DNA from: an uncultured Thermogutta sp.
GTDB lineage: Bacteria; Planctomycetota; Planctomycetia; Pirellulales; Thermoguttaceae
Length of the DNA stretch: 64,000 bases
Direction of reading: 5' to 3'
NCBI GenBank assembly: GCA_937128505.1
Contig: CAKZMM010000110.1
Location: 1 to 64,000, forward strand
Positions 7,993 through 14,869 of the stretch are shown piece after piece (positions within the stretch are counted from its first letter, which is position 1; the number at the start of each line of letters is the position of its first letter). Both the position numbers and the translations under genes were made by a program. The notes under the pieces were generated by a model. It had not been told where the DNA came from, made no database searches, and was given only the letters and a program-made list of their open reading frames with translations.

Positions 7993-10900
7993 TCACCAAT
8001 AGTGGAACTGCGCTGTGGCCATGCAGTCGCGATCTGCCTCAAGCCGCACCCAATGGGCCGAAAAAGACGAGGGAAACTCGAAGGAAACGCTTTCACCGGG
8101 CGGCACTTCCACAGTGGTGAAGCTCTGCCACGCTTGTCGGGTGGTGGTCGGGTCCACATCGATACGGAAGCGGATCGGCTCCGACTCGAGGTGGCTGAGC
8201 TCCAAGCGCTTGTTTTCAAAGCCGTACATGAGAAACGGATCAGACGGCACCCCTCCTTTCACCCTGCTTGCAAGCCAGGGGCCGCCCTTGCCCGTGGGTT
8301 TGGGAAGTTGCCAAAGGTCGTCCGTCTTGCCCAGCCACAGACACAGGTTACCATCCCGAAGAATTCTGGGACCAACGGCGGGCAAAACCGCGGGTCCCGA
8401 AAGCACTAAAAGCCCTCGCCATGACCCGAAATCGCTGATAAGCCGTCCATGGGTGCAAATGGGTTGTATGCTCCAGGCATAAGGAAGGCCGGAAACCTCG
8501 TAGAAAATCCCGTGGGTATCCAGCAACAGACGCTCCGTTTCCACTTCCCGCAATCTCGGCAGGTACTTGGCCCAGCATCGGTCATAATGCGCGGAAGCCT
8601 TCGGGAGTCGAATGGTTGACCATCGCCCTCCCAAATCTCGCACTTTCAGTAGTGCTGAGGTCGCATCCCATCCCACTGCCACGACAGTTTCACTCATCGA
8701 TCCCAGGTTGCACACTTCGGCATAAGCCGCGCGATCCACAATCCGCCACCCTCCCGGCGTCTTTTCCGCGAGAATTCCCGCCGTACCATTGGGGTTCATT
8801 CCGGCAATAATCAAAGAGGAACCCACCTGATGCCCGGCCCTAAAACAGAGCTCCTGCCCGCCTAATCCAAGCTCCTGCTTCAGATCAAAAACCGCCACCA
8901 CACAGCTTTCCCTAAGCTCGACATGCTGTAACAGCCCTGTAATCGTAAGCAGGAACATTCGCCTTTCCGGCGCCGAGGGGTCACGGATGGTAGCGACAAT
9001 CGGATGGCCACACAGTCCTTCGACCAGTTTCACCTCTCCCCGCTCACTGACGCAGTAAGGTCCGATGCTTAGCGAGGAACCGACCATCTGGCGGTTCAAT
9101 CCCGGGGGTATCGCCCCGGCTTTATCAGGGGCGGAGAAACCCTCTGCGATACGAAGTTGACTATCTACTTGAAAGAACCCTGCAGGGGAAATGCTCCCAT
9201 CCACGGCAACGTGCGTTACGAGGCACCATAATCGGTCGGCCAGCGGGACAAAGCACGTGGCATTGCCGGCAACAGATTCCTTCACCGGAGCAAACGCCGA
9301 CAGGAGAGTATCATTTCGGCGATATGACGCATAAGCGCGGCCACAACAAAGTTGTGCTGTTAACCGGGCTGGGCGATCGGCGATCAATCGCAGCCAGATG
9401 GCCGGCATTTCGTCCGGGATCATCCAGCACGCCATCCGCTGCGGACCAACCTGTAGCCGATTCACCTCCTTCCACCCACCGGAACCATCGGGATCGATTT
9501 CCACCCGGACGTTGACCAGCTGATCCCCGCGATCCAGCTCGCCCGGGGTTTCTACCACAACACCCAAATTCTCCGAAATCGGGCTAATTTCCAGGGGGAT
9601 ACCCTCCGGATCAAGGGGCTGCACAAAACACAAATGGGGCACGCCGTAGTGGCCGCGATCGTTGCGACCACTATGTTCCGGTATTTCCACTTCTCCCGCG
9701 GGAAACTCCGCATGGTGAATCTTATCGGTGTATATCTGATCATGTTCCCAGGTTAGTGTCATTTCTGTAGGTTGCCATCGAGATGGCAGAACGGGTTGAC
9801 CCCGGTCATGCACCGATAAGTAAACCACCACCGGCCGATTTACGGAAAAACGGAACGGCGTTCCCGGCCGTTCCATACTGCCGCGGCGGACGCTTACCCG
9901 CCACATCCCGCGGAGGAGTGACGGACATTCCACCACAGGAAATCGATCGGCACATCGGTAAAATTCCGAAATTTCCTTGGTGGGAAAGACGAACAAAGTC
10001 CGATGGCGATAACCTCCGACAAGCAGCGGTTCGGAGGGTTCGCCGGGCTTCACCAGGTCGCGGCACCAGGGTCCCCCCCACCCACTCGGTTCGCCCCAGT
10101 TTTCAAGCTGCTCTACTGTTCCAAACCACAAATTGGATTGAGGTTGGCCACCGGCCCGATGGCGGTGCCCCATCGAAGAATTTTGATTTCCTGCAAGCAC
10201 CAAATGCTCACCCCAACGACAAAAATCGGGAACGATTCGCAAATGCCCTGCCAACGGCTCGAGGCGAAGATGTTTTTCACCAAAGCCCTCTTCCATTCGC
10301 CAGAACATACCGTGCATATCCACCATCCAATGCTGCGGAGTGATACGCCGAATTCGCGGCCATTCGGTGCACCACGCGTGATCATGGCTTTCGCTACCTT
10401 TTAGCAAGCGATAATGCCGCCATTGGCCACCGGCCAAGACCGATAGGATGACCGACGCCCGGTCCCAGCCAACCGCCCAAAGGGGGCCCGCATCCTCCGC
10501 TATCGCTTCCACGCCATGAGCGGTCGTCACGTCGCAGTAAGCCGTCTGACGAATGACCCGCCACTTGTCCCCGTCCCATTCCGCCAGCCGTCCGGAACCG
10601 AAACCCCGAGCTACATCACCGCTTTCATACGTGTTATTCGCTACTACCAAACGCCCTTGCGACGTATAAGCCCCCTTGAAATGCGACCGACCATTGATTC
10701 CCAAAGCTTCGCGGCTCAAGTCGAAAAGCACACGACACTGAAGATTGTGCACTTCAACCTCGTACAACTTTCCCTCCATGGCTTGGGCATAGACAAGCCG
10801 GGACGGATCCTTCAAATGTCGGGCAAACGCGGTGACACGCTCACCCACAAGACCGGCAATCACCCGAACGTTTCCCCGATGGTCGATGGCATATGGTCCG

Positions 10901-11283
10901 ATAAAAAGTTGATTCGATTCGCGGTGGATAAGGCGTCCTGCATGCGTACCGACGACGCTTTCCGGACGTTTCTGAATGCGGAGGTGGCGGTCAATCTCAT
11001 AAAGACCCACTCCTGCCCCGGCTTTGTGCGCCACATAGCTGATATACCAGAGCCGATTCGCCCACGGTACCACGGCACCGATCCCGCATTCGCTCCACGA
11101 ATCGCTTAAAGCGGCCAAACGCGGGTAAATTCCCCCAAAACAGGGGAACGTTGCTTCGAAAGTAGTGTGCGGCCCCGACGACACCACGGCCTCGCCTCCA
11201 CTTGCCGAAGCCGATCTTCCCGCTTGGGCGCCAGCCAAAAGAAATAACCCAATCAAGGTAGCTACGATCAACCGTTTTTGCAT
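7993..11283 (-). CDS. Large secreted protein with an internal duplication
   Basis: Function unknown. A signal peptide (MQKRLIVATLIGLFLLAGAQA) shows export. The 1096-residue protein is two copies of one unit of about 450-550 residues. Each copy opens with a beta-propeller-like series (LW.ISYVAHK / LWCLVTHVAV; LFIGPYAID / LSIGPYCVS) and has a matching core (AVGWDRASVIL / AVGWDATSALL; MVDMHGMFWRM / LLDTHGIFYEV). Each ends in a beta-sandwich with IWLRLIADRPARLTAQL or HWVRLEADRDCMATAQF. No catalytic motif is evident. The fold suggests a cell-surface or carbohydrate-related protein, but that is inference. The ATG is preceded by GAGG at good spacing. It is unlinked to its neighbours, with gaps on both sides. 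Confidence 0.85.
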   Translation of the reverse strand: MQKRLIVATLIGLFLLAGAQAGRSASASGGEAVVSSGPHTTFEATFPCFGGIYPRLAALSDSWSECGIGAVVPWANRLWYISYVAHKAGAGVGLYEIDRHLRIQKRPESVVGTHAGRLIHRESNQLFIGPYAIDHRGNVRVIAGLVGERVTAFARHLKDPSRLVYAQAMEGKLYEVEVHNLQCRVLFDLSREALGINGRSHFKGAYTSQGRLVVANNTYESGDVARGFGSGRLAEWDGDKWRVIRQTAYCDVTTAHGVEAIAEDAGPLWAVGWDRASVILSVLAGGQWRHYRLLKGSESHDHAWCTEWPRIRRITPQHWMVDMHGMFWRMEEGFGEKHLRLEPLAGHLRIVPDFCRWGEHLVLAGNQNSSMGHRHRAGGQPQSNLWFGTVEQLENWGEPSGWGGPWCRDLVKPGEPSEPLLVGGYRHRTLFVFPTKEISEFYRCADRFPVVECPSLLRGMWRVSVRRGSMERPGTPFRFSVNRPVVVYLSVHDRGQPVLPSRWQPTEMTLTWEHDQIYTDKIHHAEFPAGEVEIPEHSGRNDRGHYGVPHLCFVQPLDPEGIPLEISPISENLGVVVETPGELDRGDQLVNVRVEIDPDGSGGWKEVNRLQVGPQRMACWMIPDEMPAIWLRLIADRPARLTAQLCCGRAYASYRRNDTLLSAFAPVKESVAGNATCFVPLADRLWCLVTHVAVDGSISPAGFFQVDSQLRIAEGFSAPDKAGAIPPGLNRQMVGSSLSIGPYCVSERGEVKLVEGLCGHPIVATIRDPSAPERRMFLLTITGLLQHVELRESCVVAVFDLKQELGLGGQELCFRAGHQVGSSLIIAGMNPNGTAGILAEKTPGGWRIVDRAAYAEVCNLGSMSETVVAVGWDATSALLKVRDLGGRWSTIRLPKASAHYDRCWAKYLPRLREVETERLLLDTHGIFYEVSGLPYAWSIQPICTHGRLISDFGSWRGLLVLSGPAVLPAVGPRILRDGNLCLWLGKTDDLWQLPKPTGKGGPWLASRVKGGVPSDPFLMYGFENKRLELSHLESEPIRFRIDVDPTTTRQAWQSFTTVEVPPGESVSFEFPSSFSAHWVRLEADRDCMATAQFHYW

Positions 11284-11610
11284 GACACATCCTCGCTTTT
11301 ATGCCAGTGAGCAAACCGGCAGCATTAGCGGGCCAAAAAATCGAAGCTCTGCGGACCGAGAGCAAAAGACTTTCTCCATTTAAAATGCGGGAATTCCGGT
11401 TGTCAAAAAAAGAAAACTCCCTATTGCGAGAGCGTGCGATCTTGAGATGGTTGTCTTGTGTGCACTAGAGATCATGGGTGCGCTATACATCGACCGTGTC
11501 TCTAAATTCGGACGAAAAATCCATCGCACCTTCAAATTATGATCCTCAGTGCACCGCAACAGTCAGTTCCAGGACTCTTGCATGCTACCGGAGGTTCGGG
11601 CTTGACGTAC

Positions 11611-11697
11611 CAAGACCCGCAGTTTTCGGGATGAGACACCCAATCGCCGTGGAACTGGATTCCTAACGTTTCAAGACCCACGGTTTTTCGGGCGAGA
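11611..11697. repeat. 26-bp direct repeat, period 61
   Basis: Units at 11611-11636 and 11672-11697 begin CAAGACCC and share TTTTCGGG followed by GAGA. They differ at a few positions. Confidence 0.75.
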
Positions 11698-11807
11698 GCG
11701 TGGCGCACGCAGGAAAAGGATCCCCTATATGCAAGAATTGCATTTTGGCGATGCTAGAAATCGATGGGGATATCGTCGATGCCGGTCGTCAGGTGTGATG
11801 TATCCGC

Positions 11808-11899
11808 GAACCTTCATGCCGATGATGGGTGACGGCGATCTGGGCGTTAAGCCGACACAATGGTATGGTGTCTCCATGAACCATCATGCCGGTCATGGG
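11808..11899. repeat. 22-bp direct repeat, period 70
   Basis: GAACCTTCATGCCGATGATG at 11808 and GAACCATCATGCCGGTCATG at 11878 match at all but three positions. A further partial copy GATGCCGGTCGTC lies near 11778. Confidence 0.75.
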
Positions 11900-12103
11900 G
11901 CCCATAACACTCGGCGACATTCGAGCGGTAGCCCCATAAGCCGAAAAAGCCTTCCGGCCCATATGCGGTGCGGAATACCGCATTGAGCGTGCCCGAAAGA
12001 CTTTTTCCCGGATATTCAAGGCAAGTTTTCGACACAAAGCCGCTATAAAGCTGCGCGGTGTTGCATCCTTTCGGCGTGCCACTGGGCGTCTTTGGAAGCC
12101 AAA

Positions 12104-14242
12104 TCACTGAACTTCCAAGGCCATCAAGTATTCATCACGAGCCTTTTGCAACTGGGCCTCTCGATCCTTCAGCTCTGCCACCCGGGCACGAAGTTTTTCG
12201 ATCTCGGTTTCCTGATCAGTAAACTTCTTCACATAGTTTTTGTAAAGCTCGCTAGCACGGTCGAGTTGGCCCATATTGGCCCGAATGCGCTCTTGGTCCT
12301 CAAAAATTTCTCTAATCTTCGTCTCACAGACTACTCTCTCCTGCTGCACAAGAGCAATTTCGTGATTTCGCCGCATGACCTCTCGCAGGGCCTGCTTGAC
12401 AGGCTCGCTGACCTGTTTGGCGGAGAGATAAATTGCGACCATCCCCTCATTCAAATCGGTTAACGCGACCTGTTGCGAGCGGATCTGCTCCTCGCGGACC
12501 TCCAGCCGCGTAGGCTCCTCCGAACTCACATCGACGCCGAACCGATAGTGGCTTCGCGTCTTTTCCTCCGCTTCTTTCGGTTCGACCAAAGTCCAATTAG
12601 GATCGATCGGATAATCGATCAACACATGCCGCCGACCTTCCCCGGAATATTTCAGCGTATACTGCCGACTTCGGACGGCCTTCCGCATGCTGATCAACAC
12701 TCCCCTGGCCAGCCGTACGGAGAGTAATTCATCGGGGGCGGATGCGGCCTGCCAAGCTACTTCTGTTTGGAGATCTACAGCGTAACTGATCAAACGTTCG
12801 GAACCCGGCGGAATATCTGTAATCTTCGCATCACCGGCGTAAGCCCCGCCCTCAAAGACCGTAATCGGTCCTTGTGTCCAGTATGTGTTAGTGTCGTTTT
12901 TAAGCCTCAAACCAGCCAACGGATATTTTGAATGAACAGTTTCGTTGTAGATGGAAAGCCGCCGGCAGGGAACCTCGGCCACTACGATGGGCAACATGGC
13001 GGATTGTTGACGGTCGATGCGGACTGGAAAAGCGATTTCATACCGGAAGAATTGCCCGAGATCGACTGCCTCGGCAGCGGAGCGAACCGACCGGCCCAAA
13101 GCGTCGATTTCAAGCCCCAAACGCGCCTCCGCCTCCAGCGATTCATCCGCGGCACGTCTCTTTTGTCTTTCGGCCAAAGCACGTCCACCGCCGAATCCCC
13201 CCAGCCCCATCGGCGCTGGCGGGGCCGCTTGCAAACCTGCTTCGGCCAACTCCCCCGCTTTCCGCACTTCTAAAGCTTGCTCGTACGCCTGCCCCCGAAT
13301 CGACTCATAGAGTTCCAGTTTTTCCTCCGGCCTCCTGATATAAAGGGGCTCATAGAGATTCATCGTAAAGGAAATCGGCCTCCCGCTGACCAGTGCCAAC
13401 CTCACATCTCGCCAGTCTTCGTCCGTGGTGTTCTCCACGATGGCCCAGCCTTGCAAAAGCCCCCGCTCCCCTTCGTCTAGAACTAGCCGGTAACTCGTCT
13501 TCCAAATGGGGGCCTCCAGGATATAGCCCAGTCGAATCCGCCGTCTCCCCTCGCCGCGCAGAGAAATGGAAACGACCTTTTTGGTGACATCGTGCGCCCC
13601 CGCCAGTACCTCCAAGGCGCGGCGGAAATCACGGTCCACCACTGGATCACAGAAGCGGATTCGCGAAACCGACTCGAGCGGAACCGTCCGCAGCCCCTCA
13701 TCGGTCATCAAGTTCAATCGCACTTTGGTCACGATTCCCATTTCGTACTTCTCTTGGACCTCCTCGGTGCTGACGATGGCACCGGAAATCGGTTGCGGCG
13801 CCTCGATTTCTACCCTCTGGCCACGAAGTTGGAGCAGTAGCTGCGCCACACTCGACGGTTCTGTTAAATCCACCGCAAAGCTCTTAAGAGTTTTGGTGAT
13901 GGGATCCTTCGACGTGTAACTAACCGAGGTTATTTGCCCGCCGTCCAAATCTTCTATGACGAGGCTCTTAAGCAGGTCATTGATGGCTTCCGTTCGAAAA
14001 CGAAATTCGATCTCTCGATTCCCCTCGATCGTGCCTCCATGTTCGAAGTAACCTACCCCGGAGCTGAAAAGCACTACCCGGGTCACGGGCAACGGCCGAT
14101 CTTCCGTGCCTTGGCCCACGCTCTGCGCCGAAGAAAGCATACCCATGAAAATGCCCCCTAAAAAGCAGACGGCTGATGCGAGACCACAGAAAAACCGCTC
14201 CAAAATTCGTTGCCCCTGCAAAAGCGGATTTGTCCCCACCAT
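12104..14242 (-). CDS. DUF4139 domain protein, exported
   Basis: Biochemical role unknown; DUF4139 proteins are predicted envelope proteins. The opening LPVTRVVLFSSGVGYFEHGG followed by EFRFRTEAINDLLKSL and the later YILEAPIWKTSYRLVLDE are typical of this family. The C-terminal 120 residues are a strong heptad-like coiled coil. A hydrophobic stretch near the N-terminus (about residues 22-40 of this form) acts as signal or anchor. I moved the start to the ATG at 14242 because GGAGGAGAAG lies just before it. The longest frame, to 14290, adds 16 residues with no ribosome site. A glycine-rich linker GLGGFGGGRA lies near the middle. The gene stands alone. Confidence 0.88.
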   Translation of the reverse strand: MVGTNPLLQGQRILERFFCGLASAVCFLGGIFMGMLSSAQSVGQGTEDRPLPVTRVVLFSSGVGYFEHGGTIEGNREIEFRFRTEAINDLLKSLVIEDLDGGQITSVSYTSKDPITKTLKSFAVDLTEPSSVAQLLLQLRGQRVEIEAPQPISGAIVSTEEVQEKYEMGIVTKVRLNLMTDEGLRTVPLESVSRIRFCDPVVDRDFRRALEVLAGAHDVTKKVVSISLRGEGRRRIRLGYILEAPIWKTSYRLVLDEGERGLLQGWAIVENTTDEDWRDVRLALVSGRPISFTMNLYEPLYIRRPEEKLELYESIRGQAYEQALEVRKAGELAEAGLQAAPPAPMGLGGFGGGRALAERQKRRAADESLEAEARLGLEIDALGRSVRSAAEAVDLGQFFRYEIAFPVRIDRQQSAMLPIVVAEVPCRRLSIYNETVHSKYPLAGLRLKNDTNTYWTQGPITVFEGGAYAGDAKITDIPPGSERLISYAVDLQTEVAWQAASAPDELLSVRLARGVLISMRKAVRSRQYTLKYSGEGRRHVLIDYPIDPNWTLVEPKEAEEKTRSHYRFGVDVSSEEPTRLEVREEQIRSQQVALTDLNEGMVAIYLSAKQVSEPVKQALREVMRRNHEIALVQQERVVCETKIREIFEDQERIRANMGQLDRASELYKNYVKKFTDQETEIEKLRARVAELKDREAQLQKARDEYLMALEVQ

Positions 14243-14869
14243 TCTTCTCCTCCATTTCCCCAACAAGTATTCGTTCTTCTCGTTCGCCAACCATTCCCGT
14301 CAAGCTGTGCCACTTCGATCGCCAAATCGCCCATCCTGCTCCCTTCACCGACCGGCGACCTAACGCCCCAATTAGCCGGTTATTCACGACCAGTGCAGGG
14401 TCCCTTGCATGGCATAAAACGGGCTATTTCCTCCCAAAGGGATATTCAAACGTTCGACTGCGGCATATGGCAAAACCTCTCAGCCCAGGCGCTATTCGCC
14501 GTGCTTTGCCCTTTAAAGGCTAGCTTACCGAAAGCGCTACCACCTCAAAAAAGCACCCGAAGATTAGACAAACGTTAGGCCGCAAAAGTTCCGAGGATTT
14601 TCGCTCGAAAAATCGTATCCTGTACTTCTAAGAAACGTACTTCCTAAGAAACAGTTTACCCAATAGCGTTAAAAAATGGAAAACGCGTGTCCGCTGAGCA
14701 AAAACTCGCGAAAAAGCCGCGGAAACAAATTCTGATGCGCGTTCATGTCAGATGGCTGATTTGGGCTTTATAGCAGGTCCGTGGCGCAGGCCCACGGTGG
14801 GGACTCACGGTATTGGCTCACCGTGTAGGATTACCGTGTCCGAATAAGTTGTAGGATTATGGTGTAGGA
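14243..14869. other. Gap upstream of the DUF4139 gene
   Basis: About 630 bp. It holds the short duplication at 14622-14652 and, at the right edge, the repeats running into the end of tgt. Nothing else is recognised. Confidence 0.45.
14622..14652. repeat. 15/16-bp tandem duplication
   Basis: GTACTTCTAAGAAAC (14622-14636) is followed directly by GTACTTCCTAAGAAAC (14637-14652), differing by one inserted C. Confidence 0.85.

Follow-up and report, generated by a model that had tools for sequence, protein, structure and literature searches.

The minus strand of the window, the whole 64,000-nucleotide stretch of DNA that was analyzed, encodes at 7993..11283 a 1096-aa protein (ORF P0001, ATG start) that consists of two copies of one unit. 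We put at about 50% the probability that this protein is a secreted and probably glycan-degrading enzyme, belonging to a family unnamed in the libraries we searched, in which unit 1 is active and unit 2 is non-catalytic. In the models the basic unit is a beta-propeller, seven-bladed by our count, that ends in a small beta-sandwich; some Planctomycetota still encode it alone, and two copies of it were fused once. Unit 1 retains a conserved pocket, located mainly on one propeller face, and would be the active part. In unit 2 the scaffold persists and much of the pocket has been lost; this copy is a probable non-catalytic partner that may hold the substrate or stabilize the protein. The window genus and one other have a full-length unit 2, and in the other collected lineages the copy is about three blades shorter.

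Build and predicted fold of the two-unit protein

An earlier note, made from the sequence, had described a secreted protein made of two copies of one unit with propeller-like and beta-sandwich parts. We split the protein at residue 660 and compared its halves. They aligned over 402 columns (29.6% identity, E 4.6e-45), and the sandwich regions of both halves gave a separate match of 57 columns (29.8% identity, E 4.5e-6). The Smith-Waterman score of the halves was 408, compared to a maximum of 56 among 300 shuffles, which ruled out a chance resemblance. Because of this score and the two matches, we conclude that the duplication is real. The motif pairs that had been quoted for it (AVGWDRAS / AVGWDATS and DMHGMFW / DTHGIFY) are present in the translation. 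The claim of secretion holds as far as the hydrophobic N-terminus carries it: approximately aa 1-25 (11209..11283, minus strand) read by eye as a putative signal peptide, and on that reading the protein is probably secreted. Beyond the earlier note, the two copies are unequal, the insert domain of unit 1 is common to other proteins, and most of the collected relatives have a shortened unit 2.

Unit 1 spans about aa 46-655 and unit 2 aa 660-1096, with all features on the minus strand. The propeller of unit 1, which carries the conserved pocket, was delimited by its unit-profile match, the model and conservation (aa 49-433, 9985..11139), and the small beta-sandwich of this unit by the half-versus-half match, the model and the unit profile (aa 586-646, 9346..9528). 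Between them lies an extra domain, the insert domain (aa 447-575, 9559..9945), which unit 2 does not have. Unit 2 consists of a full-length propeller in which much of the pocket is lost (aa 671-1008, 8260..9273; model, unit profile and conservation), followed by its own small sandwich (aa 1025-1095, 7999..8211; half-versus-half match and model). An 820-bp gap (11284-12103) separates the gene from the next one and holds one two-copy 24-nt repeat only; in the adjoining 728-aa protein (12104-14290, minus strand), the middle part alone had a match, of DUF4139 / MuiA type and below threshold. The whole 64-kb window contained no tRNA and no Rfam match at the gathering threshold.

Structures of the halves were predicted from alignments of six rows, taken from the window and two other same-genus loci only. 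In both models, four-stranded blades come one after another and a small beta-sandwich closes the unit, so the halves share one propeller-then-sandwich layout rather than having unrelated folds, in agreement with the parts proposed earlier. The unit 2 model reached a pLDDT of 83.7 and a pTM of 0.85, and the unit 1 model, insert included, 74.6 and 0.68. The number of blades, seven, is a by-eye count from the strand lists, and the best structural matches are also seven-bladed propellers. For unit 2, at least 50 propeller-type matches were listed at Z 17.6-19.0; these include virginiamycin B lyase (2z2o; Z 18.9, rmsd 3.7, 263 aligned residues) and the lectins PLL4, PLL5 and PLL (Z 17.7-18.5). For unit 1, virginiamycin B lyase was the top one among the matches listed (Z 21.6, rmsd 3.9, 270 aligned residues), and WD40-type and other propellers followed within about two Z units. 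Foldseek and VIA returned generic propellers, and no ulvan or rhamnose-glucuronate lyase was described among the best 50 matches listed per search, an absence that carries no weight against a relationship to such lyases. Since the propeller fold is common and the matches are generic, WD40s and lectins included, the fold says little on function.

The family had not been recognized when the sequence was first read, and library searches bore this out. The 1096-aa protein had zero matches in Pfam (E<=0.1) and NCBIfam, and searches of the PDB by sequence and profile gave nothing better than E 0.12. Sixteen family members showed only scattered weak Pfam matches, with PLipase_C_C in two (best E 0.0025) and Dockerin_1 in one (E 0.0027), and their best NCBIfam match was at E 0.042. 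By eye, a 1153-aa open frame at one locus (L017) ends in C-terminal dockerin-like repeats and a PEP-type anchor. Nothing on the two-unit propeller family came up when the literature was searched for propeller lyases, for Thermogutta and for the evolution of propellers; the family, on these searches together with Pfam, NCBIfam and the PDB, appears to be undescribed.

Two same-genus relatives (L021 and L022) are 53-55% identical to the window protein across nearly the whole length. With the own genome counted each time, 70 of 119 genomes of the host's taxonomic family had a match, as did 40 of 392 in a phylum-wide sample (a few via fragments). Among 40 related genomes 18 matched; one of these (G018) did so by the insert domain alone, so that 17 of the 40 count for the protein family. 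One relative is from Bacteroidota, on a Spirosoma plasmid (33% identity over 59% of the query), and viral contigs yielded none. From the fetched loci, which are only part of all matches, we kept 79 distinct family proteins. Eleven of these are single-unit proteins, the single-unit homologs whose search had been proposed. A first unit is present in the other 68, and all but one of these (67) also have a second. One protein, truncated at a contig end, shows unit 1 only (L010), and another is a fragment with an incomplete unit 1 (L048).

The insert domain of unit 1 matched no Pfam family. It recurs near the end of a FAD_oxidored (PF12831) protein (L074, 1588-3942) and inside a GH30-like protein with a Glyco_hydro_30C match (L076, 1361-3445), and two further loci (L018, of the FAD type by eye, and L133) also carry it. 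Among the 79 family proteins it is present in six, three of the window genus and three with a short unit 2 (L004, L043 and L045), and a two-unit protein outside the 79 (L129) has it too. The domain may be older than the window genus or may have been inserted more than once, and these ~105-130 aa may represent a new accessory domain of carbohydrate-related proteins.

The conserved pocket and its fate in unit 2

Conservation was assessed in 11 single-unit and 67-68 first-unit sequences. At 33 positions the same residue occurs in at least 95% of both the single units and the first units, and 16 of these positions are D, E, H, K, R, N, Y or Q. The pocket residues of the unit 1 propeller comprise E65, Y83, R117, R149, E170, H201, K203, N217, D274, T306-E307-W308, R310 and D353. 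Of the 16 charged or polar positions, 13 lie on the top side, compared to 66 of 123 background positions (hypergeometric P 0.016, with strands named by hand in a medium-confidence model).

Retention of the 16 positions was then scored in the six full-length second units, with gaps taken as not kept. Half of them (E65, H120, R149, E170, H201, K203, N217 and E307) are kept in at most one of the six, and five (E175, D274, R292, R310 and D353) in five or six. R117 persists in four, the window protein included, Y83 in three and H156 in two. Judged from these alignments, unit 2 retains much of the scaffold, and much of the pocket, but not all of it, has been lost. The location of the conserved residues mostly on one face, along with the loss of eight of 16 from unit 2, points to a unit 1 that, on the model, looks like the active part and a unit 2 that would be its non-catalytic copy.

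FoRham1, a gum arabic rhamnose-glucuronate lyase, is described together with PL24 and PL25 as a seven-bladed propeller lyase (PMC8377490); in FoRham1 and PL24 a His serves as base and acid and an Arg neutralizes the uronate, and the Pfam family of FoRham1 is given as BNR_4 (PF15892). Our models, their best matches and the by-eye strand count give a seven-bladed propeller here too, with conserved His, Arg and Tyr and a putative one-face site, features that it has in common with these lyases. At the level of sequence conservation, the family has an invariant His and an invariant Arg, as would be needed for the base/acid and neutralizing roles in such lyases. Unlike PL24, PL25 and FoRham1, the proteins studied here have a C-terminal sandwich, a duplicated unit and, in the family, additional invariant Glu and Lys. 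No BNR_4 match was found in 16 family members at E<=1, which bears on FoRham1-like members only. By analogy, the His/Arg/Lys/Tyr/Glu pocket resembles those of seven-bladed lyases and would suggest lyase-like chemistry. The acidic invariants E65, E170 and E307 are as compatible with a hydrolase as with a lyase.

Tandem-propeller glycosidases are known from GH74, in which the catalytic acids lie in the cleft between the two propellers. Like GH74-type glycosidases, the window protein has two propellers in one chain; unlike them, it has lost much of the pocket in one propeller and carries a small sandwich after each. No Pfam match to any GH family was obtained, either with the 1096-aa protein at E<=0.1 or with the 16 members.

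Gene neighborhoods and the putative glycan substrate

The neighbors of the window copy are housekeeping-like (IspD, TyrRS, an adenylate kinase-like gene and TGT). On the opposite strand, upstream of the two same-genus copies (L021, 3-6198; L022, 27-7051), are genes for a ~1297-aa WbsX/GH99-like + esterase protein and a heparinase II/III-like protein; the domains were scanned in L021, and the L022 orthologues are 65-67% identical. Among the genes called in window positions 1-24000, none except that of the 1096-aa protein matches these loci. Within about 8 kb of other relatives we found GH101, PL8, a sulfatase and CBM9, and also a gene of melibiase type and a number of regulators of the IclR, AraC or XylR type. 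On a Spirosoma oryzicola plasmid (NZ_CP089539.1; L053, 10140-17397), a TonB-dependent receptor (SusC), RagB/SusD and the relative, annotated 'hypothetical protein', follow each other in this order on the same strand, and the relative starts 44 nt behind SusD.

In a comparison of 37 neighbors, hand-picked from the called genes within about 8 kb and unmatched to controls, with the 20 of 28 picked controls that were scanned, glycan-related genes made up 8/37 and 2/20, an enrichment that is not significant (one-sided Fisher P 0.24). Counting GH, PL, WbsX-type and sulfatase neighbors only gave 5/37 (P 0.53 against the controls). An all-against-all comparison of neighbors returned mostly shadow frames of the family gene itself, and seven recurrent or nearby genes were scanned for domains after it. 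From the gene context described above, we infer a glycan link for the family; the sharing of the insert domain with a GH30-like protein and the weak Dockerin_1 match in one of 16 members also count toward it.

An alternative is a non-catalytic surface glycan-binding protein, whose lectin-like propellers would hold polysaccharide for neighboring enzymes or importers. A gene behind SusC-SusD often encodes a surface glycan-binding protein, the Spirosoma relative occupies just this place, and PLL4, PLL5 and PLL are among the fold matches of unit 2. This gene order was seen in the Spirosoma plasmid, which carries the one Bacteroidota relative found; the window's own genome had no SusD match, and the conserved pocket is enzyme-like. 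Near-invariant E, H, R, K and Y residues mostly on one face suit an enzyme better, and a plain binder would be expected to tolerate substitutions more easily. We consider pure binding unlikely, though the better placed of the alternatives.

The protein might instead be an enzyme whose substrate is no polysaccharide, such as a lactonase or, like virginiamycin B lyase (Vgb), a lyase that cleaves a small cyclic compound. The window copy lies among housekeeping-like genes, and Vgb heads the listed fold matches of unit 1. This match is practically tied with that to a CPF polymerase-module subunit (Z 21.1, less than one unit below), one of the unrelated propellers, and unlike the shared propeller fold, identity to Vgb is low, at 11% in the structural alignment. 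By sequence, no convincing Pfam or NCBIfam match placed the protein with Vgb, and PDB sequence searches brought up no such chain. The SusC-SusD linkage and the genes around the two other copies of this genus speak for glycans, and we regard a non-polysaccharide substrate as rather improbable. A glycan-degrading enzyme with an active unit 1 is the reading that we prefer.

Origin of the two-unit form and shortening of unit 2

A profile of 499 positions, which we derived from the 11 single-unit sequences, extends over most of unit 1 in complete proteins. In six of the 67 two-unit proteins, three from the window genus and three from a second genus in its taxonomic family, the profile match of the second unit begins at position 54-67, and unit 2 is full length. 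In the other 61 it begins at position 271 or later, which leaves positions 61-260 uncovered, a stretch that we read as blades 2-4. The linker of these short proteins measures 110-136 aa (57 of the 61 used). Compared with full-length unit 2, it matched blade 1 and, past a jump, blade 5, weakly and in collinear order (hhalign probabilities of 53% and 59%); with the single-unit alignment, the probability was 81% for the blade-5 part and only 3.6% for the blade-1 part. The best reading of these alignments is that short unit 2 arose by an internal loss of about three blades with approximate ends, and the direction of change would be blade loss rather than gain.

A tree of the shared C-terminal half was computed from 107 sequences remaining after thinning at 80% identity, with 100 FastTree bootstraps. 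First units formed one group in 100/100 bootstraps and second units one group in 99/100, which shows that one duplication or fusion underlies the collected two-unit proteins. These separate, well-supported groups agree with the old age that had been proposed for the duplication. Single units are placed between these groups without forming one of their own (3/100), and the first units other than those of full-length proteins were grouped in 27/100. Short second units were grouped in 76/100, and with this support blades may have been lost more than once. We rejected the idea that unit 2 is a recent copy of unit 1, because the N-half of the window unit 2 is not close to the window unit 1. It is very improbable that the window genus acquired its full-length unit 2 anew at a late stage, through recombination with unit 1 or with a gene for a single unit: the N-half of full-length unit 2 does have a long branch, next to two proteins of the single-unit type (support 0.75), and the single origin of short second units reached 76/100 only, but full-length unit 2 falls outside the unit 1 group in both halves (0.965 in the N-half tree; unit 1 at 100/100 in the C-half tree), its N-half shows no recent unit 1 copy, and the full-length second units of two genera group together in the C-half tree (91/100, four sequences after thinning). 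We conclude that there was one old duplication or fusion of two related units, of which the window genus keeps the fuller state.

We hold it possible, if somewhat doubtful, that these proteins make up a new propeller polysaccharide-degrading family, with a living series that leads from a single active unit, through the addition of a full-length silent copy (the window genus and one other), to a copy minus about three blades. If this is right, the family, which has no name in Pfam or NCBIfam and has matches in 40 of 392 phylum genomes (the own genome counted) and on one Bacteroidota plasmid, would be a testable candidate for a new carbohydrate-active family, and its three architectures would offer a natural series on how a duplicated enzyme domain becomes a non-catalytic partner and on the loss of propeller blades.
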